In this document: piece by piece, positions 13,492 to 64,000 of the stretch | How the letters are laid out: each line of letters begins with the position of its first letter | Position numbering within the stretch: the stretch's first letter is position 1 | DNA from: an uncultured Clostridia bacterium | Lineage (GTDB): Bacteria; Bacillota; Clostridia; Christensenellales; Borkfalkiaceae | Assembly (NCBI GenBank): GCA_947589085.1 | Contig: CANPZD010000003.1 | Location: 1-64,000 of the forward strand | Length of the DNA stretch: 64,000 nt | Direction of reading: 5' to 3' | Position numbers and translations under genes: made by a program | Notes under the pieces: model-generated | Database searches by the model: none | Seen by the model: the letters and a program-made list of their open reading frames with translations, nothing else | Told to the model about the DNA's origin: nothing

Positions 13492-13534
13492 CTGAGCCGT
13501 GCGCCCGCCGTTTTACGGCGGGCGCACGGCTCAG
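13492..13534. repeat. Perfect 20-bp stem hairpin repeat (copy 1)
   Basis: An inverted repeat beginning CTGAGCCGTGCGCCCGCCGT has a 3-base loop. The inner part (GTGCGCCCGCCGT-TTT-complement) recurs exactly at 62186-62214, in both places beside the larger interspersed repeat described at 13564. It has no coding potential. Flanking GGATGAC matches the ends of intergenic CATCC/GGATGA-type repeats seen in many gut bacteria (recollection, not a search). Confidence 0.85.
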
Positions 13535-13563
13535 GATGACGGGAGAGGGACGGAGGCTTTTCT

Positions 13564-13680
13564 TGGCGCCCCCTTTGAGGGGGAGCTGTCGAGGCGAAGC
13601 CGAGACTGAGGGGGTGTTGTTCCGCATTGCGTATGCCCCTCCTTCCGTCTCGCCGCACAGCTTAGGAACGAGGGAGCAGG
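13564..13680 (-). repeat. Interspersed MITE-like repeat, copy A
   Basis: It reads on the minus strand as ..CCCCCTCAGTCTCGGCTTCG..CAGCTCCCCCTCAAAGGGGGCGCC. That core of about 52 bases is nearly identical to 28986-29040 and 62307-62357. The distal part of this copy differs from B and C: it carries CCCCTCCTTCCGTCTCGCCG instead of the GTGGCGTGCCGC hairpin. No ORF is seen. Confidence 0.8.
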
Positions 13681-24072: not shown

Positions 24073-24143
24073 CAAAAACTCTCCCAAAAAGTATACCTTT
24101 TGAGAGAGGCGGTTCCGAGCTGCAAAAATAAGCTCCCGGCACG
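24073..24143 (-). ncRNA. Putative small RNA, copy 1 (promoter-hairpin element)
   Basis: A strong promoter (24150-24178) is followed on the minus strand by a transcript of about 70 nt. It begins near CGTGCCGGGAGC and ends in a terminator-like hairpin (CTCTCAAAAGGTATAC and its partner) plus TTTTTGG. The argG promoter lies further downstream, so this unit is self-contained. The 5' part is identical to copy 2 at 62423-62488; the middle differs. It could be an sRNA or simply the inside of a mobile repeat. Confidence 0.5.
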
Positions 24144-24210
24144 TTTTTGAGTATATCACAGGCTCATTTTGCTGTCAAGAGGTTTTTCTCAAAAAGTATA
24201 CTTTTTGAGA
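24079..24210. repeat. Palindrome-bounded element, copy 1
   Basis: The element is about 132 bp long. Its right boundary (24187-24210) is a perfect 24-bp palindrome centred on AAAAAGTATACTTTTT. Its left boundary (24079-24108) is a near-perfect version of the same sequence. The two ends are also inverted repeats of each other. Copy 2 lies at 62424-62557 in the same orientation and in the same place relative to a paralogous lipoprotein gene. Confidence 0.85.
24150..24178 (-). promoter_or_regulatory. Consensus promoter inside the palindromic element, copy 1
   Basis: TTGACA-17 bp-TATACT on the minus strand, preceded by TG at the -10 (TGTGATATACT). No ORF starts between it and the hairpin. Confidence 0.8.
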
Positions 24211-24376: not shown

Positions 24377-27300
24377 ATGAAAAAAAGAACAAAACTCTTG
24401 CTCGTTCTTGTAGCGGCATTGTGTTTGTGTCTTGGATTCGGCGTATTTGCGGCGTGCAAAAAAGACGATTCCGGCAAGAAACACGTGCACGATTACAGCG
24501 AATGGGCATACAACGGCACGGAACACTGGAAAGTGTGTCCTGTGGACGACGCAGAGCAGGAGGGCACGCGCGAAGAGCACACGATCGTGGACGGAAAGTG
24601 CGAGTGCGGCTATCAGGAAGCTCTGCCCGCGCACGTACATACGTATACGAAGCTCCAATCGGACGTGACGTATCACTGGATGGAATGCCCGGATGATAAC
24701 GATTACGTCGATCGTTTCGGCCATATTTACCGGGACGGCAAGTGTATCGTCTGCCAGAAGGCGGGCACGGCGCCCGAAGGCGAGCTCGATACGCGCAAGT
24801 GGTACGTTGCGGGCAGCGGCGCCGGCGATCTGAACGGCGTCGGCTGGGATACGTTGTCGACCCTGAAGCAGTTCGCCAAGATGGTGACGTTAGATGCGAC
24901 GGGCAACACGGTATATACGATCGAGCTTGAGCTGTATTCGGGCGACGAATTCAAGTTCGTGCAGGATCTCGACTGGGACGAAGGTCTCGGCTACTACGGA
25001 TTCAGCAGCCTTGCCAACGGCGCCAACGACTTCAAAGACGCGGGCAGCGGCGGCAATATCACGCCTCTTGCGGGGCACGACGGCGTGTATGAATTCTATA
25101 TCCGCACGACGCCCGAAGGCGGCGCGACGGCGAACATGGTGGAATATCGCCTTGTCGAGCATCTCGATCCGTTGGATATCACCGCACAGTACGATATGTA
25201 TATCATCGGCGCGATCGGTGCGCTCGGTTCCAACTGGCAGGAAACGACGGATAAGATGCAGAAGATGGAGCTTCAGCCGGACGGCGTAACGTTCCGCGGC
25301 GAAATCAAGCTCACGACGGCGGATAAATTCAAGGTTTACAACCTGGTCACCGACAACTACTATCCCACGGGCACGAACAACGACCTGTTCGTCACGCAGG
25401 AAGCGCTGTATGTGGTCACATGGAAAGTCGGCGACGCCATGCCGAAGGTAGAGGAGTGGAAACACATCCACGACTTCTCGAGCTACAATCACGACGACAC
25501 GAACCACTGGGGCGTCTGCCTCGATGACGGCGTCGAGGATAAGGAAAACCCGGTCGCGCACGACTTCGGCGACGACGCTTACTGCGACGTCTGCGGCTAT
25601 GAGAAGGCGGATAAACCCGAATGCGCGAAGCACACCTGGACGACGGAGAACGTCTGTTCCGTCTGCGGCCGTCACTGGCGCTACACGGAGAATCTGACGT
25701 ACAAGATCACCTCCGATCACAAGGGTTATATCGTCACGGGGTACGACAGCGACAAACTTCCCGCAGATCTCACCGAGATCGTAGTACCTTATTACTATAA
25801 GGGGCTTCCCGTTACGGAAATCGGATCAAGCGCGTTCCTGTACGCAGACAGAACGAACACGAAGTTCCAGCAGATCAGAAGCGTTGTGCTGCCCGACAGC
25901 ATCACGAAGATCGGCGGGAGCGCATTCAAAGCTTTGAGTCTCAAGAAGATCGACATCGGCGACGGCGTCAAGACGATCGGAGCTTCCGCGTTCCAGAACA
26001 TTAAGACCCTTACGGCGATCGACCTTCCCGAAACGGTGACCAGCATCGGCAAGGAAGCGTTCAGCGGGTGTCTGCTGCTCTACAGCCTGAAGATTCCCGC
26101 AGGTCTTACGACGATCGAAGAGAAAACGTTCTACGGTACGCGCGTGGTCGAACTCACGATCCCGGCAGGCGTTACGTTTATCGGCAAAGACGCGTTCGGA
26201 GGCTGCACGAGCCTTACGAAATTAGAGTTCGAAACGGGTTCCCAACTCAAAGAGATCGACCAGTTGGCGTTCGAGGGCACCGAGAAGCTCGAGACCATCG
26301 AACTGCCCGAAGGGCTTGAAACGATCGGCGCGCAGTGCTTCGGTATGATACAGGGCACGACGGTGGCTCGTTGCGGCTTGAAACAGATCACGATCCCCGC
26401 AAGCGTCAAATCGATCGGCGTGATGGGATTCTGGGGCGCCCAGAGCCTCGAATCGTTCGCATTCGCGGATCCCGAAGGCTGGCTCTACACGCAGAGCGGC
26501 GAACAGATCGTGCTCGGCGGCGAAATGATGTCCGATCCCGCTGCCTTTGCGGCATGGATGGTAACGTTGAGAACCAAACAGCCCAAGATGGCGAAGGTCG
26601 AAACGCCCCATACGCATGAATTCAAGGTCCGCTTCACCGAGACGGAGCACTGGCAGCGCTGCTCGATCTGCCTTGCGCTCAAAGAACCCGTCTCCAAACA
26701 CACCTACGATCTTCAGGGCTACTGCACCGTGTGCGATTTCAAGCACGAGCACACCTATGCGGATACCTGGACCACGGATAAAGAAGGGCATTGGCATGCA
26801 GCGACCTGCGGCTGCGATCTCAAGAAAGATTACGCGGCGCACACGCTCAATGCTTCCACCTACAAGTGCACGACGTGCGACTATCAGCACACGCATACGT
26901 ACGGCAATACCTATGAGTACGACGATACGAACCATTGGCGCGTCGCGACCTGCCACCCGACGGTGAAGTACAATGAAACGGCGCACAGCTACTCGTCCGG
27001 AAGAGACACCTGCCGCTACTGCGGGTACGAGCGCGTTCTGCAGGGCGACGACAACGGCACGCCGAACCTGATGTTCAAGATCAACGATGAATACACGGGC
27101 GCGATCGTCACGGGATTCAGCGAATATCCCGAAGATCTTGCCACGTTCACCGAGATCGTCATTCCCGAAAAGGTCGGCAAGTGGGACGTCGTGGAGATCG
27201 CTGCCGACGCGTTCATCAACACGAGCCAGTACGGCGCTCCCGATAAGTGGAAGAAGTTCGACAACATCACGAAAGTCGTGATCCCGAATACGGTCACGAG

Positions 27301-28792
27301 GATCGGCAACAACGCGTTCAAGGGCTTCCCGGCGCTCGCCGACCTCACGCTTCCTACGGGTCAGCTCCGTCTCGTCGGTACGTACGCCTTCTCTGGTTCG
27401 CTGGTCACGTCCGTGACGCTGAAAGCGCAGATCATCGGCGATTACGCCTTCCAGAACTGCACCAACCTCACGACTGCGAATATCACCGCAAACGAGATCG
27501 GCAAGGAAGCGTTCTCCGGCTGCGCGCAGCTTTCCACGCTCACCCTCGGCGAAGGACTGGAAACGTTGTCGACCAGCGTGTTCAAGGGCCTCGCGATCTC
27601 GACCGTCACGCTTCCCGCAAGCCTCAAGACGCTCAGCAATTCGACGTTCGAAGGCTGCACGGAACTTGCTACCGTCAACTTCGGCGGCGTCGTAACGCTC
27701 GGCACGGGTGTGTTCAAGGGTTGCACAAGCCTTGAAAAGATCGCTCTGCCCGCCGGCATCACCGAACTTCCCGAATCGACCTTCGAAGGCTGCGAAAAGC
27801 TCACACAGGTCACCGGCTTCGAGAACTACACGTCGATCGGCAAGAACGGGTTCAAGGGCTGCAAGCTGTTCACCTTCACGTCGCTTCCCGCCAAACTCAA
27901 CACGTTCGGCGACAGCGCGTTCGAGGGCTGCGAAGCCATCACTTCCATCAAACTTCCCGATTCGATCAAGACGATCGGCCAGAACGTGTTCAAGGATTGC
28001 ATCAATCTCAAGACGATCGACCTCGGCACGAAGATCAGCAAGCTCGGCACGGGTATGTTCCAGGGCTGCCTTGCGTTCGAATCCTTCACGCTGCCCGCGC
28101 AGGTCGTAGCGGTTCCCGCTTCCCTGCTCGCCGGGTGCACCAACATCACGACCGTCACCCTCCACGCGAACGTGGAAACCATCGGCGGAAGCGCGTTCAA
28201 GGGTCTCGAAAAGATCACGAAGATCGACATCCCGACCAAAGTTACGTCGATCGGAGCGAACGCGTTCCAGAACTGCAAGCTGCTCGACGGCGTGAAACTG
28301 CCCGCGGGCGTCAAGACGATCGCCAACTATCTGTTCGACGGCTGCGCCGCCCTCAGCGCGATCGAGATCCCCGCAGACGTTACGTCGATCGGGAACTATG
28401 CGTTCCGCGGCTGCGTGAAGCTCACCCAGATCACGGTGCCCGATAAGGTCACCTCGATCGGCACGAACGCGTTCCAGAACTGCACGATGCTTGCAACGGT
28501 CAAACTCGGCGCTGCGCTCACGACGATCGACAAGCTTGCATTCGACGGCTGCACGTCGCTCACCTCGATCGAGATCCCCGCAAAGGTCAACACGATTAGC
28601 GTGACGGCGTTCAGAAATACGGGTCTCACGAGCGTAACGTTCGCGACCACGTCGGGCTGGTTCATTGCAACGAGCAAGACCGGCACGAGCGGTACCTCCG
28701 TTGCTTCCACCAAGACTTCGGACGCTGCAGAAGCTGCGAAGTTGCTCAAGGACAACACGGAGACCACGTCGAAGTATTACAGAAGAAAGTAA
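24377..28792 (+). CDS. BspA-type LRR lipoprotein with H/W/C-rich repeats
   Basis: This is a 1471-residue surface lipoprotein. The start at 24377 is supported by AAAGGAGGAAGTAT and a signal peptide ending in lipobox FAAC (residue 27). Residues 35-135 hold two His/Trp/Cys modules of the form HxYxxW..HWxxCP..H..CxCG. About 140-365 looks like paired starch-binding/SusE-type beta domains (KWYVAGSGAGDLNG, YIIGAIGALGSNWQ). LRR_5 units fill about 440-720, three more H/W/C modules lie at about 745-885, and a second LRR block runs to about 1430. It is paralogous to the gene at 62710. No promoter is evident on the plus strand within the leader, although CGGAAATATTCCG is conserved just before the ribosome site in both paralogues. 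Confidence 0.9.
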   Translation: MKKRTKLLLVLVAALCLCLGFGVFAACKKDDSGKKHVHDYSEWAYNGTEHWKVCPVDDAEQEGTREEHTIVDGKCECGYQEALPAHVHTYTKLQSDVTYHWMECPDDNDYVDRFGHIYRDGKCIVCQKAGTAPEGELDTRKWYVAGSGAGDLNGVGWDTLSTLKQFAKMVTLDATGNTVYTIELELYSGDEFKFVQDLDWDEGLGYYGFSSLANGANDFKDAGSGGNITPLAGHDGVYEFYIRTTPEGGATANMVEYRLVEHLDPLDITAQYDMYIIGAIGALGSNWQETTDKMQKMELQPDGVTFRGEIKLTTADKFKVYNLVTDNYYPTGTNNDLFVTQEALYVVTWKVGDAMPKVEEWKHIHDFSSYNHDDTNHWGVCLDDGVEDKENPVAHDFGDDAYCDVCGYEKADKPECAKHTWTTENVCSVCGRHWRYTENLTYKITSDHKGYIVTGYDSDKLPADLTEIVVPYYYKGLPVTEIGSSAFLYADRTNTKFQQIRSVVLPDSITKIGGSAFKALSLKKIDIGDGVKTIGASAFQNIKTLTAIDLPETVTSIGKEAFSGCLLLYSLKIPAGLTTIEEKTFYGTRVVELTIPAGVTFIGKDAFGGCTSLTKLEFETGSQLKEIDQLAFEGTEKLETIELPEGLETIGAQCFGMIQGTTVARCGLKQITIPASVKSIGVMGFWGAQSLESFAFADPEGWLYTQSGEQIVLGGEMMSDPAAFAAWMVTLRTKQPKMAKVETPHTHEFKVRFTETEHWQRCSICLALKEPVSKHTYDLQGYCTVCDFKHEHTYADTWTTDKEGHWHAATCGCDLKKDYAAHTLNASTYKCTTCDYQHTHTYGNTYEYDDTNHWRVATCHPTVKYNETAHSYSSGRDTCRYCGYERVLQGDDNGTPNLMFKINDEYTGAIVTGFSEYPEDLATFTEIVIPEKVGKWDVVEIAADAFINTSQYGAPDKWKKFDNITKVVIPNTVTRIGNNAFKGFPALADLTLPTGQLRLVGTYAFSGSLVTSVTLKAQIIGDYAFQNCTNLTTANITANEIGKEAFSGCAQLSTLTLGEGLETLSTSVFKGLAISTVTLPASLKTLSNSTFEGCTELATVNFGGVVTLGTGVFKGCTSLEKIALPAGITELPESTFEGCEKLTQVTGFENYTSIGKNGFKGCKLFTFTSLPAKLNTFGDSAFEGCEAITSIKLPDSIKTIGQNVFKDCINLKTIDLGTKISKLGTGMFQGCLAFESFTLPAQVVAVPASLLAGCTNITTVTLHANVETIGGSAFKGLEKITKIDIPTKVTSIGANAFQNCKLLDGVKLPAGVKTIANYLFDGCAALSAIEIPADVTSIGNYAFRGCVKLTQITVPDKVTSIGTNAFQNCTMLATVKLGAALTTIDKLAFDGCTSLTSIEIPAKVNTISVTAFRNTGLTSVTFATTSGWFIATSKTGTSGTSVASTKTSDAAEAAKLLKDNTETTSKYYRRK

Positions 28793-28897: not shown

Positions 28898-28913
28898 GCC
28901 TTAAATTTCCTTG

Positions 28914-29040
28914 CTGTCCCCTTGAGGGGAAAGTGGCGTGCCGCTTTGCGGCACGACGAAAGGGGTGGCGTACCCCCAATCGGAACGCCACCCCCTCAGT
29001 CTCGGCTTCGCCTCGCCAGCTCCCCCTCAAAGGGGGCGCC
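28914..29040 (+). repeat. Interspersed MITE-like repeat, copy B
   Basis: It begins CTGTCCCCTTGAGGGGAAAG and ends CTCAAAGGGGGCGCC, with an internal GTGCCGC..GCGGCAC hairpin. It is about 85-90% alike to copy C (62231-62357) by eye and shares its last 55 bases with copy A. It fills most of the gap between two convergent terminators. No ORF is seen. Confidence 0.85.
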
Positions 29041-29084
29041 GAGAAAAATGCGGTGTCAAATCCCCCCGGTCGATGAAAAAGGGC

Positions 29085-62033: not shown

Positions 62034-62185
62034 AATTTGAAATCGCGTGTGCGCGCCCTCGGGCGTTCTCTTTTTCGCCTGTTCTTCCGTCATTCCGAAC
62101 GTCCTTCTCCTGTCATTGCTAACATTTCCTCTCGTCATTCCGAACGAATGTGAGGAATCTCATTCTCAATACGTCATCCTGAGCC

Positions 62186-62214
62186 GTGCGCCCGCCGTTT
62201 TACGGCGGGCGCAC
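62186..62214. repeat. Hairpin repeat (copy 2 of 13492-13534)
   Basis: GTGCGCCCGCCGT-TTT-complement, identical to the core of copy 1, again next to the large interspersed repeat. The outer arms have decayed here. Upstream (62090-62170) lie degenerate GTCATTCCGAAC-type repeat fragments; no gene was seen between 62034 and 62424. Confidence 0.85.
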
Positions 62215-62230
62215 GTGTCGAAGGATCTCG

Positions 62231-62357
62231 CTGTCCCCTTGAGGGGAAAGTGGCGTGCCGCGGAGCGGCACGCCGAAAGGGGTGGCGTACGCAAACGGAA
62301 CGACAACACCCCCTCAGTCTCGGCTTCGCCTCGCCAGCTCCCCCTCAAGGGGGCGCC
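62231..62357 (+). repeat. Interspersed MITE-like repeat, copy C
   Basis: CTGTCCCCTTGAGGGGAAAG ... CTCAAGGGGGCGCC, with an internal GTGCCGC-GGA-GCGGCAC hairpin. Nearly the same as copy B, same orientation; copy A is inverted. Confidence 0.85.
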
Positions 62358-62417
62358 AAGGCAATGCCGGAGGGGTGAAAAAAAACGAAAAAAACCGCGG
62401 AAAAAGCGGTAGGAAAA

Positions 62418-62488
62418 AAATAACTCTCCCAAAAAGTATACTTTTTGAGAGAGCGGAAATCGGGTGGTGAAATCGTGCTCCCGGCACG
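62418..62488 (-). ncRNA. Putative small RNA, copy 2 (promoter-hairpin element)
   Basis: The arrangement matches copy 1: promoter at 62495-62523, a transcript beginning near CGTGCCGGGAGCACG, and a hairpin (CTCTCAAAAAGTATAC and partner) followed by TTATTTTTTT on the minus strand. The next gene downstream (61527) is on the opposite strand, so this promoter has no protein-coding target. Confidence 0.5.
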
Positions 62489-62557
62489 TTTTTGAGTATA
62501 TCACACCCTTTTTTTGCTGTCAAGAGGTTTTTCTCAAAAAGTATACTTTTTGGGAGA
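62424..62557. repeat. Palindrome-bounded element, copy 2
   Basis: About 134 bp, bounded by near-perfect palindromes at 62424-62453 and 62532-62557. The outermost bases form a 17-bp terminal inverted repeat, TCTCCCAAAAAGTATAC. Copy 1 at 24079-24210 has the same layout. Confidence 0.85.
62495..62523 (-). promoter_or_regulatory. Consensus promoter inside the palindromic element, copy 2
   Basis: TTGACA-17 bp-TATACT on the minus strand, identical hexamers and spacing to copy 1. Confidence 0.8.
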
Positions 62558-62601
62558 ATTACATAAAGGCGGGCGGGCGAATTCCCTCATAAAACGCGGA
62601 A

Positions 62602-62709: not shown

Positions 62710-64000
62710 ATGAAGAAAAGAACCAGACTTTTGCTCATTCTCGTAGCGGCTCTGTGTTTGTGTCTCGGATTCGGCGTATTTGCTGCGTGCAAGAACGAAC
62801 CGAAGAAACACGTGCACGAGTATACGGCATGGGCGCACGACGGCACATACCATTGGAAGGTGTGTCCGGTGGACGATGCGGCGGACGAAAGTACGCGCGA
62901 AGAGCACACGATGGTAGACGGCAAGTGCACCGTGTGCGACTATGCAGGCGCTCCTGCCGCGCACGTACATAAGTATACAGAACTTCGTTCGGACACGAAG
63001 AACCACTGGTACGAATGTGCGGAGGACGGCGATTACATCACGCAGTTCGGTCATGTTTATGAAAACGGCAAGTGCATCGTATGCGGCAAGGAGGGCACGG
63101 CGCCTGCAGACGCCGAGCTGGATACGCGCAAATGGTACGTTGTCGGGAACGGCGCGGGGTCGCTTCTCAGCATTACGTGGGATAAACTCTTCGGCGATAT
63201 GACGAAGGCGGATCATCCGGACGCGAACGGATACACGGTATACACGCGTACGCTCGATCTGTATAAGGGCGACCAATTCAAATTCGTGCAGGATCTTCTG
63301 TGGGGAGAAGAGGGCGGTCTCGGCTATTACAGTTTGGGCGAAGTTGCCAATTCCGCGGGCGTATTCCAAGACGGCGGTTTGGGCAACATCAAGCTCATGG
63401 AAGGGCAAGACGGCACGTACGAATTCATCATTCGTTCCAAGCCGGGTGAAAATGACACGGCGGTCATGGTGGAGTGGAGACTTGTGAAACCGCTTGAGCC
63501 GCTGAACGTGGAAGAGCAATTCAACATGTACATCATCGGGCACCTTCACTGCACGAACGCGTTGGATCAGAACACGCAGTGGAGCAAGGATCCCTCGTAC
63601 ATGGTGAAGATGAACCTGATGGCGGACGGCGAAACGTTCTATGCGGTTGCCGAGCTGTACGATAACGACGAGTTCAAGGTGTACAACCTCAGAACGAACG
63701 CGTACTTCCCGGACGGCACGAACAACAACCTGAAACCTCCCAAGACGACGCTCTATGTCGTTACATGGAAGATCGGCGACGCAAGCCCGGTATGGGAAGA
63801 ATATCATCACGTCCATAACTATTCCGAATACAAGCACGACGCGAACGAACACTGGTGCGTGTGCGTGCAGGACGGCGAAATGGACGAAACGCACGGAAAA
63901 GCGGCGCACGAGTTCGGAGACGACAACTTCTGCGACGTGTGCGGCTATGAAAAGGCAGAGAAACCGGAGTGCGAAACGCATACTTGGGGTACGGATAACG
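62710..64000 (+). CDS. BspA-like lipoprotein with H/W/C repeats, 3'-truncated
   Basis: This gene is absent from the ORF track because no stop occurs before the window end. ATG 62710 follows AAAGGAGGAAGGAT. The 430 visible residues are clearly paralogous to the 24377 gene: the same signal peptide and lipobox (FGVFAAC), two H/W/C modules (HVHEYTAWAHDGTYHWKVCP, then GKCTVCDY), and paired SusE-like beta domains (KWYVVGNGAGSLLS, NMYIIGHLHC). A third H/W/C module (HNYSEYKHDANEHWCVC) follows. LRR units would be expected beyond the window. Leader and upstream palindromic element are also shared with the paralogue. Confidence 0.9.
   Translation, partial: MKKRTRLLLILVAALCLCLGFGVFAACKNEPKKHVHEYTAWAHDGTYHWKVCPVDDAADESTREEHTMVDGKCTVCDYAGAPAAHVHKYTELRSDTKNHWYECAEDGDYITQFGHVYENGKCIVCGKEGTAPADAELDTRKWYVVGNGAGSLLSITWDKLFGDMTKADHPDANGYTVYTRTLDLYKGDQFKFVQDLLWGEEGGLGYYSLGEVANSAGVFQDGGLGNIKLMEGQDGTYEFIIRSKPGENDTAVMVEWRLVKPLEPLNVEEQFNMYIIGHLHCTNALDQNTQWSKDPSYMVKMNLMADGETFYAVAELYDNDEFKVYNLRTNAYFPDGTNNNLKPPKTTLYVVTWKIGDASPVWEEYHHVHNYSEYKHDANEHWCVCVQDGEMDETHGKAAHEFGDDNFCDVCGYEKAEKPECETHTWGTDN

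Follow-up and report, generated by a model that had tools for sequence, protein, structure and literature searches.

Organization of the locus

The window is the whole 64,000-nucleotide stretch analyzed here, from an uncultured Clostridia bacterium. Within the element at 24,073-24,210, two GTATAC palindromes lie 105 bp apart, centre to centre (24093/24094 and 24198/24199), around a minus-strand TTGACA-17-TATACT promoter. This promoter is of the sigma-70 type (24150..24178, minus strand), was judged by consensus alone (11/12 match), and lies inside the 105-bp segment that runs from one centre to the other (24094..24198, minus strand), which is the predicted invertible segment. In the assembly, the promoter points away from the neighboring lipoprotein gene, an arrangement referred to below as OFF; the reverse is referred to as ON. 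The gene-side palindrome, TCTCAAAAAGTATACTTTTTGAGA, is a perfect 24-bp palindrome (24187..24210) and putative recombination site, T-poor on its outside and carrying no terminator towards the gene. The OFF-side palindrome (24079..24108, minus strand) is an imperfect copy with a 13-bp stem followed by TTTTT (hairpin dG −16.2 kcal/mol, z −4.8), and would serve both as the second recombination site and as an intrinsic terminator. From the positions of promoter and terminator, a short OFF-state transcript is predicted on the minus strand (24079..24143) with its start near CGTGCCGGGAGC, and it would end in the terminator before the arg operon. An earlier note on this DNA had described the palindromes, the promoter and the terminator-like second palindrome, all of which were confirmed at their positions; it had also reported that the element holds no ORF, and the only frame listed inside it was a mechanical 171-aa GTG frame that is not a real ORF.

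The arg operon had been credited in the same note with a promoter of its own, and a promoter-like site was found for argG at 23970-23942. Regulation of the arg operon by the element was considered and rejected, given that a terminator stands between the element and argG and that argG has this promoter-like site. The element is relevant instead to the plus-strand lipoprotein gene that starts at 24377. This gene (24377..28792) encodes a 1471-aa BspA-type leucine-rich-repeat lipoprotein (MKKRTKLLLVLVAALCLC...C; PF13306, E 1.7e-156) and is in the OFF arrangement in the assembly. A second copy of the switch, also OFF, is located at 62413..62561 on the minus strand (centres 62439/62440 and 62544/62545, promoter 62523-62495) and precedes a second plus-strand lipoprotein gene (62710..64000, MKKRTRLLLILVAALCLC...) that continues beyond the window.

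An interspersed repeat of short inverted units (GTGCGCCCGCCG..., CCCCCTCAGTCTCGGCTTCGCC...) was also observed at 13492-13661, 28910-29047, and 62172-62368 of the window, once just after the first lipoprotein gene and once beside the second switch. Sequence resembling this repeat was also present in another genome of the genus (L078).

Copies in the source genome

BLAST searches of the source genome (1.38 Mb in 28 contigs) recovered 8 full copies of the element and 3 halves at contig ends, for a total of at least 11. The element had earlier been described as a self-contained unit, present in multiple copies, in which a promoter and a terminator are combined with palindromic ends; this description was supported, and the count extends well past the two copies in the window. 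The 105-bp spacing between palindrome centres was found in 8/8 full copies, and the −35 and −10 hexamers were identical across all of them. The spaced-pair pattern gave 5 exact matches in this genome and the reversed-pattern control gave 0. Close DNA copies were absent from 36 other genomes of the genus, and no copy was found in the viral contigs searched. Contigs C4, C16, and C25 end inside the element, all on its OFF side, so that further lipoprotein genes and switches are missing from the assembly or split in it.

Each of the 8 full copies precedes a lipoprotein gene, at a distance of 79-401 bp from its start codon. Seven of the adjacent genes belong to one family (MKKRTxLLLxLVAALCLC...C), the long members of which carry BspA-type leucine-rich repeats (PF13306), and the remaining gene (C3:97662) encodes a lipoprotein of 168-171 aa. 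Of the 8 full copies, 7 (both window copies among them) are oriented with the promoter away from the lipoprotein gene, and the copy on contig C17 has it facing the gene and is thus ON. The three half copies are also arranged OFF, with the constant leader abutting the terminator side, so that 10/11 copies count as OFF when judged by where the promoter lies with respect to the terminator side. All 11 copies had a T-run on the outer side of the OFF-side palindrome (7-9 T of 14), and the gene side had 2-3 T of 14 (6 in one copy). From this base composition, the palindrome is predicted to act as a terminator in the OFF direction only, and the calculated hairpin energies agree with this. That one-sidedness would explain why the arg operon is not read through, and also why a fixed 5′ end and a terminator were seen when the element was first read.

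Homology between copies runs into both flanks, past the palindromes, and this allowed the C17 copy to be compared with its paralogs. C17 shares its flanks with the C28 copy and window copy 2, and relative to those flanks its stretch from one palindrome to the other is reversed. Each flank of C17 matches the opposite flank of C28 in reverse complement, over 305 bp at 89% and 300 bp at 94% identity, the inner 91 bp of the two copies are 100% identical, and the breakpoints coincide with the palindromes. Because the breakpoints fall there, the promoter segment would appear to invert, or to have inverted, between them. As in invertons, inverted repeats surround a promoter-bearing segment, and both of its orientations were found against the same flanks when the C17 paralog was set beside C28 and window copy 2, the species being represented by one assembly.

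Site rules across bacterial genomes

A pattern scan (AAAAGTNNACTTTT-N75-105-AAAAGTNNACTTTT) of 84,980 genomes returned at least 80 loci. The matches listed were mostly from metagenome-assembled genomes of gut Clostridia, and also came from Desulfovibrionaceae, Verrucomicrobia, and Christensenella hongkongensis. Serine recombinases with a 2-bp overlap (Hin-type) need an identical central dinucleotide in both sites. Among the matches listed whose central NN is not palindromic, 34 had identical partners in inverted orientation, 5 were direct, and 1 was mismatched, and the inverted identical dinucleotides fit the need of such an enzyme. The six exceptions (Bacteroidetes, Bacillus, and Alkalithermobacter records) look like chance matches.

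Spacings among the matches listed cluster at 94-96, 104-107, and 113-117 bp, and spacings of 95, 105, and 115 bp correspond to 9, 10, and 11 helical turns. With one spacing per record, a Rayleigh test for a 10-10.5-bp period gave p of about 1e-10 among the matches listed, and no phasing signal was present in the six exceptional records. When 396 genomes of the order were scanned separately, pairs at 90-120 bp were found in 10 genomes and pairs at 120-150 bp in only 2, at 135 and 136 bp (13 turns). Five genomes of the same order (G125-G129; genus g77, family f6) each hold 5-14 switches, every one upstream of a large secreted-protein gene, and most of these switches have a different promoter (TTGCAA-17-TATAAT) and a 95-bp spacing.

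Five other genomes (records JAIDRT, CAMWIL, SVKY, DWXX, and JAFVXA) also hold elements of one family in both orientations relative to shared flanks. Across nine multi-copy genomes and the source genome, about 7 of roughly 66 resolved copies were ON, an approximate count that was partly read by eye from flank type and in which paralogs are not independent; the switch state in assemblies is strongly OFF-biased. Exactly one ON copy per genome, as in mutually exclusive expression, was a tempting rule after the first five genomes and was dropped when enumeration gave 0-2 ON copies, with two in G127. At one pair of orthologous loci, two sites in G020 correspond to one site in G071 through a precise deletion between the sites (L077 2149-2268 versus L080). 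This is the product that would be expected when palindromic cores recombine in deletion mode, and deletion should compete with inversion because the core of the site (AT) is palindromic.

The associated recombinase

The source genome encodes a small serine recombinase of 199 aa (C5:5282-5878) with a PF00239 catalytic domain and intact YxRVSS and DRLGR motifs, the RVS and DRLGR signatures that mark a serine recombinase. Its closest solved structure was Sin (2r0q, E 7.7e-28), as against about 1e-10 for DNA-invertase chains. As in known invertons, a site-specific recombinase was tied to the sites, here by association across genomes. In a genome of the same genus (G019), a 58%-identical recombinase gene abuts a GTATAC palindrome pair 114 bp apart with a promoter between, and this is followed by the gene for a 1946-aa secreted protein. 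Among 101 genomes of the genus, 4/4 with exact palindrome pairs have the recombinase (Fisher p 0.0018). Site-like sequence, allowing up to 3 mismatches, was found within 260 bp upstream of 16/19 examined recombinase genes in the genus, compared to a background of 0.05 per 260 bp. Several genomes (G007, G066, G072, and G020) have paired sites around a promoter with the recombinase divergent to a lipoprotein or secreted-protein gene. Beyond the genus and among the matches listed, the recombinase at E<1e-50 was present in 22/25 genomes with inverted or palindromic pairs versus 0/6 others (Fisher p 1.1e-4), and the recombinase gene was located within 100 bp of the element in 9/80 loci.

The best site match at the C5 recombinase gene itself has 3 mismatches, and the gene is unlinked to the element copies. 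Lacking a good site at its own gene, this recombinase would act in trans, and we consider it the likely enzyme for the switches of the source genome. At three loci where the recombinase is divergent to a surface gene (L289 in G140:C36, L072 in G007, and L077 in G020), the OFF promoter points at the recombinase gene. Such loci could form a feedback loop in which the OFF state makes the enzyme and the enzyme flips the promoter back.

A tyrosine recombinase could work the switch in place of the serine enzyme. The source genome has four PF00589 (tyrosine-recombinase domain) matches alongside three large serine recombinases, and a published Clostridia inverton group, number 139, the best studied of those found to have an enzyme assigned, is linked to a tyrosine recombinase (PMC11892184). 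We nevertheless regard this as unlikely, since it is the serine family that co-occurs with and adjoins AAAAGTNNACTTTT pairs across taxa, and since two of the tyrosine recombinase genes are beside pilin-like genes, one of them with a different inverted repeat of its own. These two similar genes (G000:C7:54226-54993, L047 1501-2268, and G000:C5:42298, L046) each neighbor a type IV pilin-like gene, and between recombinase and pilin on C7 lies a 146-bp stretch bounded by a 16-bp inverted repeat (TAGAATAGTCTATTCT). The C7 locus is probably a second, unrelated invertible promoter in this genome.

A probable invertible promoter for surface lipoproteins

Taken together, the reversed segment in C17, the rules that the sites follow, and their association with a recombinase lead to a site-specific inversion switch. 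As judged from sequence comparison, the element is very probably an inverton, an invertible promoter through which surface lipoproteins would undergo phase variation. The small serine recombinase would bind the two GTATAC palindromes, synapsed across ten helical turns, and strand exchange at the central AT would invert the 105-bp segment. In the OFF state, as in both window copies, transcription would run away from the gene and be stopped at the hairpin and T-run of the outer palindrome. In the ON state, as in C17, transcription would cross the gene-side palindrome, which is without a T-run, and enter the lipoprotein gene. We infer that inversion would be active and reversible in cells and would set lipoprotein expression.

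The copies could instead be a former inverton that is now locked, that is, fixed OFF-biased relics kept by gene duplication. The OFF arrangement of 10/11 copies, the lack of a cis-linked recombinase, and a recombinase locus without a clear site of its own would all fit such a history. Relics of this kind seem quite improbable, however, when sites and spacing (105 bp) hardly vary from copy to copy, when the genome encodes a recombinase that retains the YxRVSS and DRLGR motifs, and when the inner segment of the ON copy is 100% identical to that of an OFF copy.

Two further readings had been offered in the earlier note, and neither held up against the copies and relatives. According to the first, the element is a small-RNA gene family in which the minus-strand promoter drives a regulatory RNA of roughly 70 nt whose 5′ end is fixed and whose terminator is palindromic. 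The strong promoter, the conservation of the first 12 nt, and the stable terminator hairpin agree with this, but we found no Rfam family at gathering score and no RNA sequence or structure conserved across species: the CGTGCCGGGAGC 5′ segment is absent in G019, G025, and G083 despite kept sites and promoter, the predicted 5′ fold differs between copy 1 and copy 2, and in C17 the same RNA start leads into mRNA as part of its 5′ UTR, which together make a small RNA very doubtful. The second, a MITE-like miniature mobile element carrying a promoter between palindromic ends, would fit the palindromic ends and the 11 or more near-identical copies, of which three are at contig ends. It is nonetheless scarcely credible, given that all full copies are on the 5′ side of lipoprotein genes, that no target-site duplication was seen by eye at the palindrome ends, that 36 other genomes of the genus lack close copies, and that the flanks align well beyond both ends, so that gene and promoter were duplicated as one unit, which does not end at the terminal repeats.

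Comparison with known systems

The invertible promoters proposed here resemble several described systems in part. In Mycoplasma penetrans, many dispersed lipoprotein genes of the P35/mpl family each have an invertible promoter and switch ON and OFF independently (PMC2268961, describing Horino et al. 2003). The dispersed lipoprotein genes of the source genome likewise have their own promoters of this kind, and the differences are a Sin/Hin-like serine recombinase with GTATAC-core sites and an unrelated host and unrelated proteins. The proposed M. penetrans recombinases (MYPE8180/MYPE2900) we take to be another system, of the tyrosine type.

Mpi of Bacteroides fragilis is a master serine invertase that acts in trans on at least 13 promoters (PMC5903667). 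By analogy, the recombinase described here, at about 200 aa, would act in trans on dispersed promoters of surface structures. It differs from Mpi in its site class, and scores against the Mpi family NF009949 were 31.9 bits (source genome) and 49.9 bits (G019), below the NCBIfam cut-off of 272, which places it outside that family. Hin/hix of Salmonella and the phage invertases share with the present system a serine recombinase, short palindromic sites, a 2-bp core, and promoter inversion, and hix half-sites also read TCAAAAA. Unlike Hin, the C5 recombinase is nearer to Sin than to the DNA invertases, and the helically phased segment of about 95-115 bp contains neither a recombinase gene nor a recognized enhancer.

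Gut invertons identified with PhaseFinder, Clostridia included, also consist of inverted repeats around a promoter beside surface genes (PMC11892184), and the present elements share the repeats, the promoter, and the neighboring surface gene. Serine recombinases and spacing rules are not mentioned in the main text of that study, and AAAAGTNNACTTTT may overlap with a motif in its supplementary lists. A search of open papers for AAAGTATACTTT returned only an unrelated malaria microsatellite paper.

Implications

The family looks like a class of serine-recombinase invertons in which the site is simple, the palindromes also act as terminators on one side, and very short segments are helically phased; it is widespread and apparently little described. 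We put at about even the chance that it forms a phylum-spanning, previously unrecognized inversion system, in which a Sin/Hin-like clade acts on AAAAGT-NN-ACTTTT sites, very short promoters are inverted only at 9, 10, or 11 turns, the sites serve as terminators on one side, and in some species the enzyme serves, in trans, arrays that hold twelve or more surface-protein switches biased towards OFF.

Pairs of AAAAGTNNACTTTT at about 95, 105, or 115 bp provide a simple rule for locating such switches in any assembly, with no need for reads. The recombinases could serve as compact, orthogonal DNA switches, and the strict phasing near 100 bp bears on how serine invertases favor inversion over deletion without a large enhancer complex. 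For the organism itself, a puzzling repeat becomes a predicted phase-variation system in an uncultured lineage of gut Clostridia.
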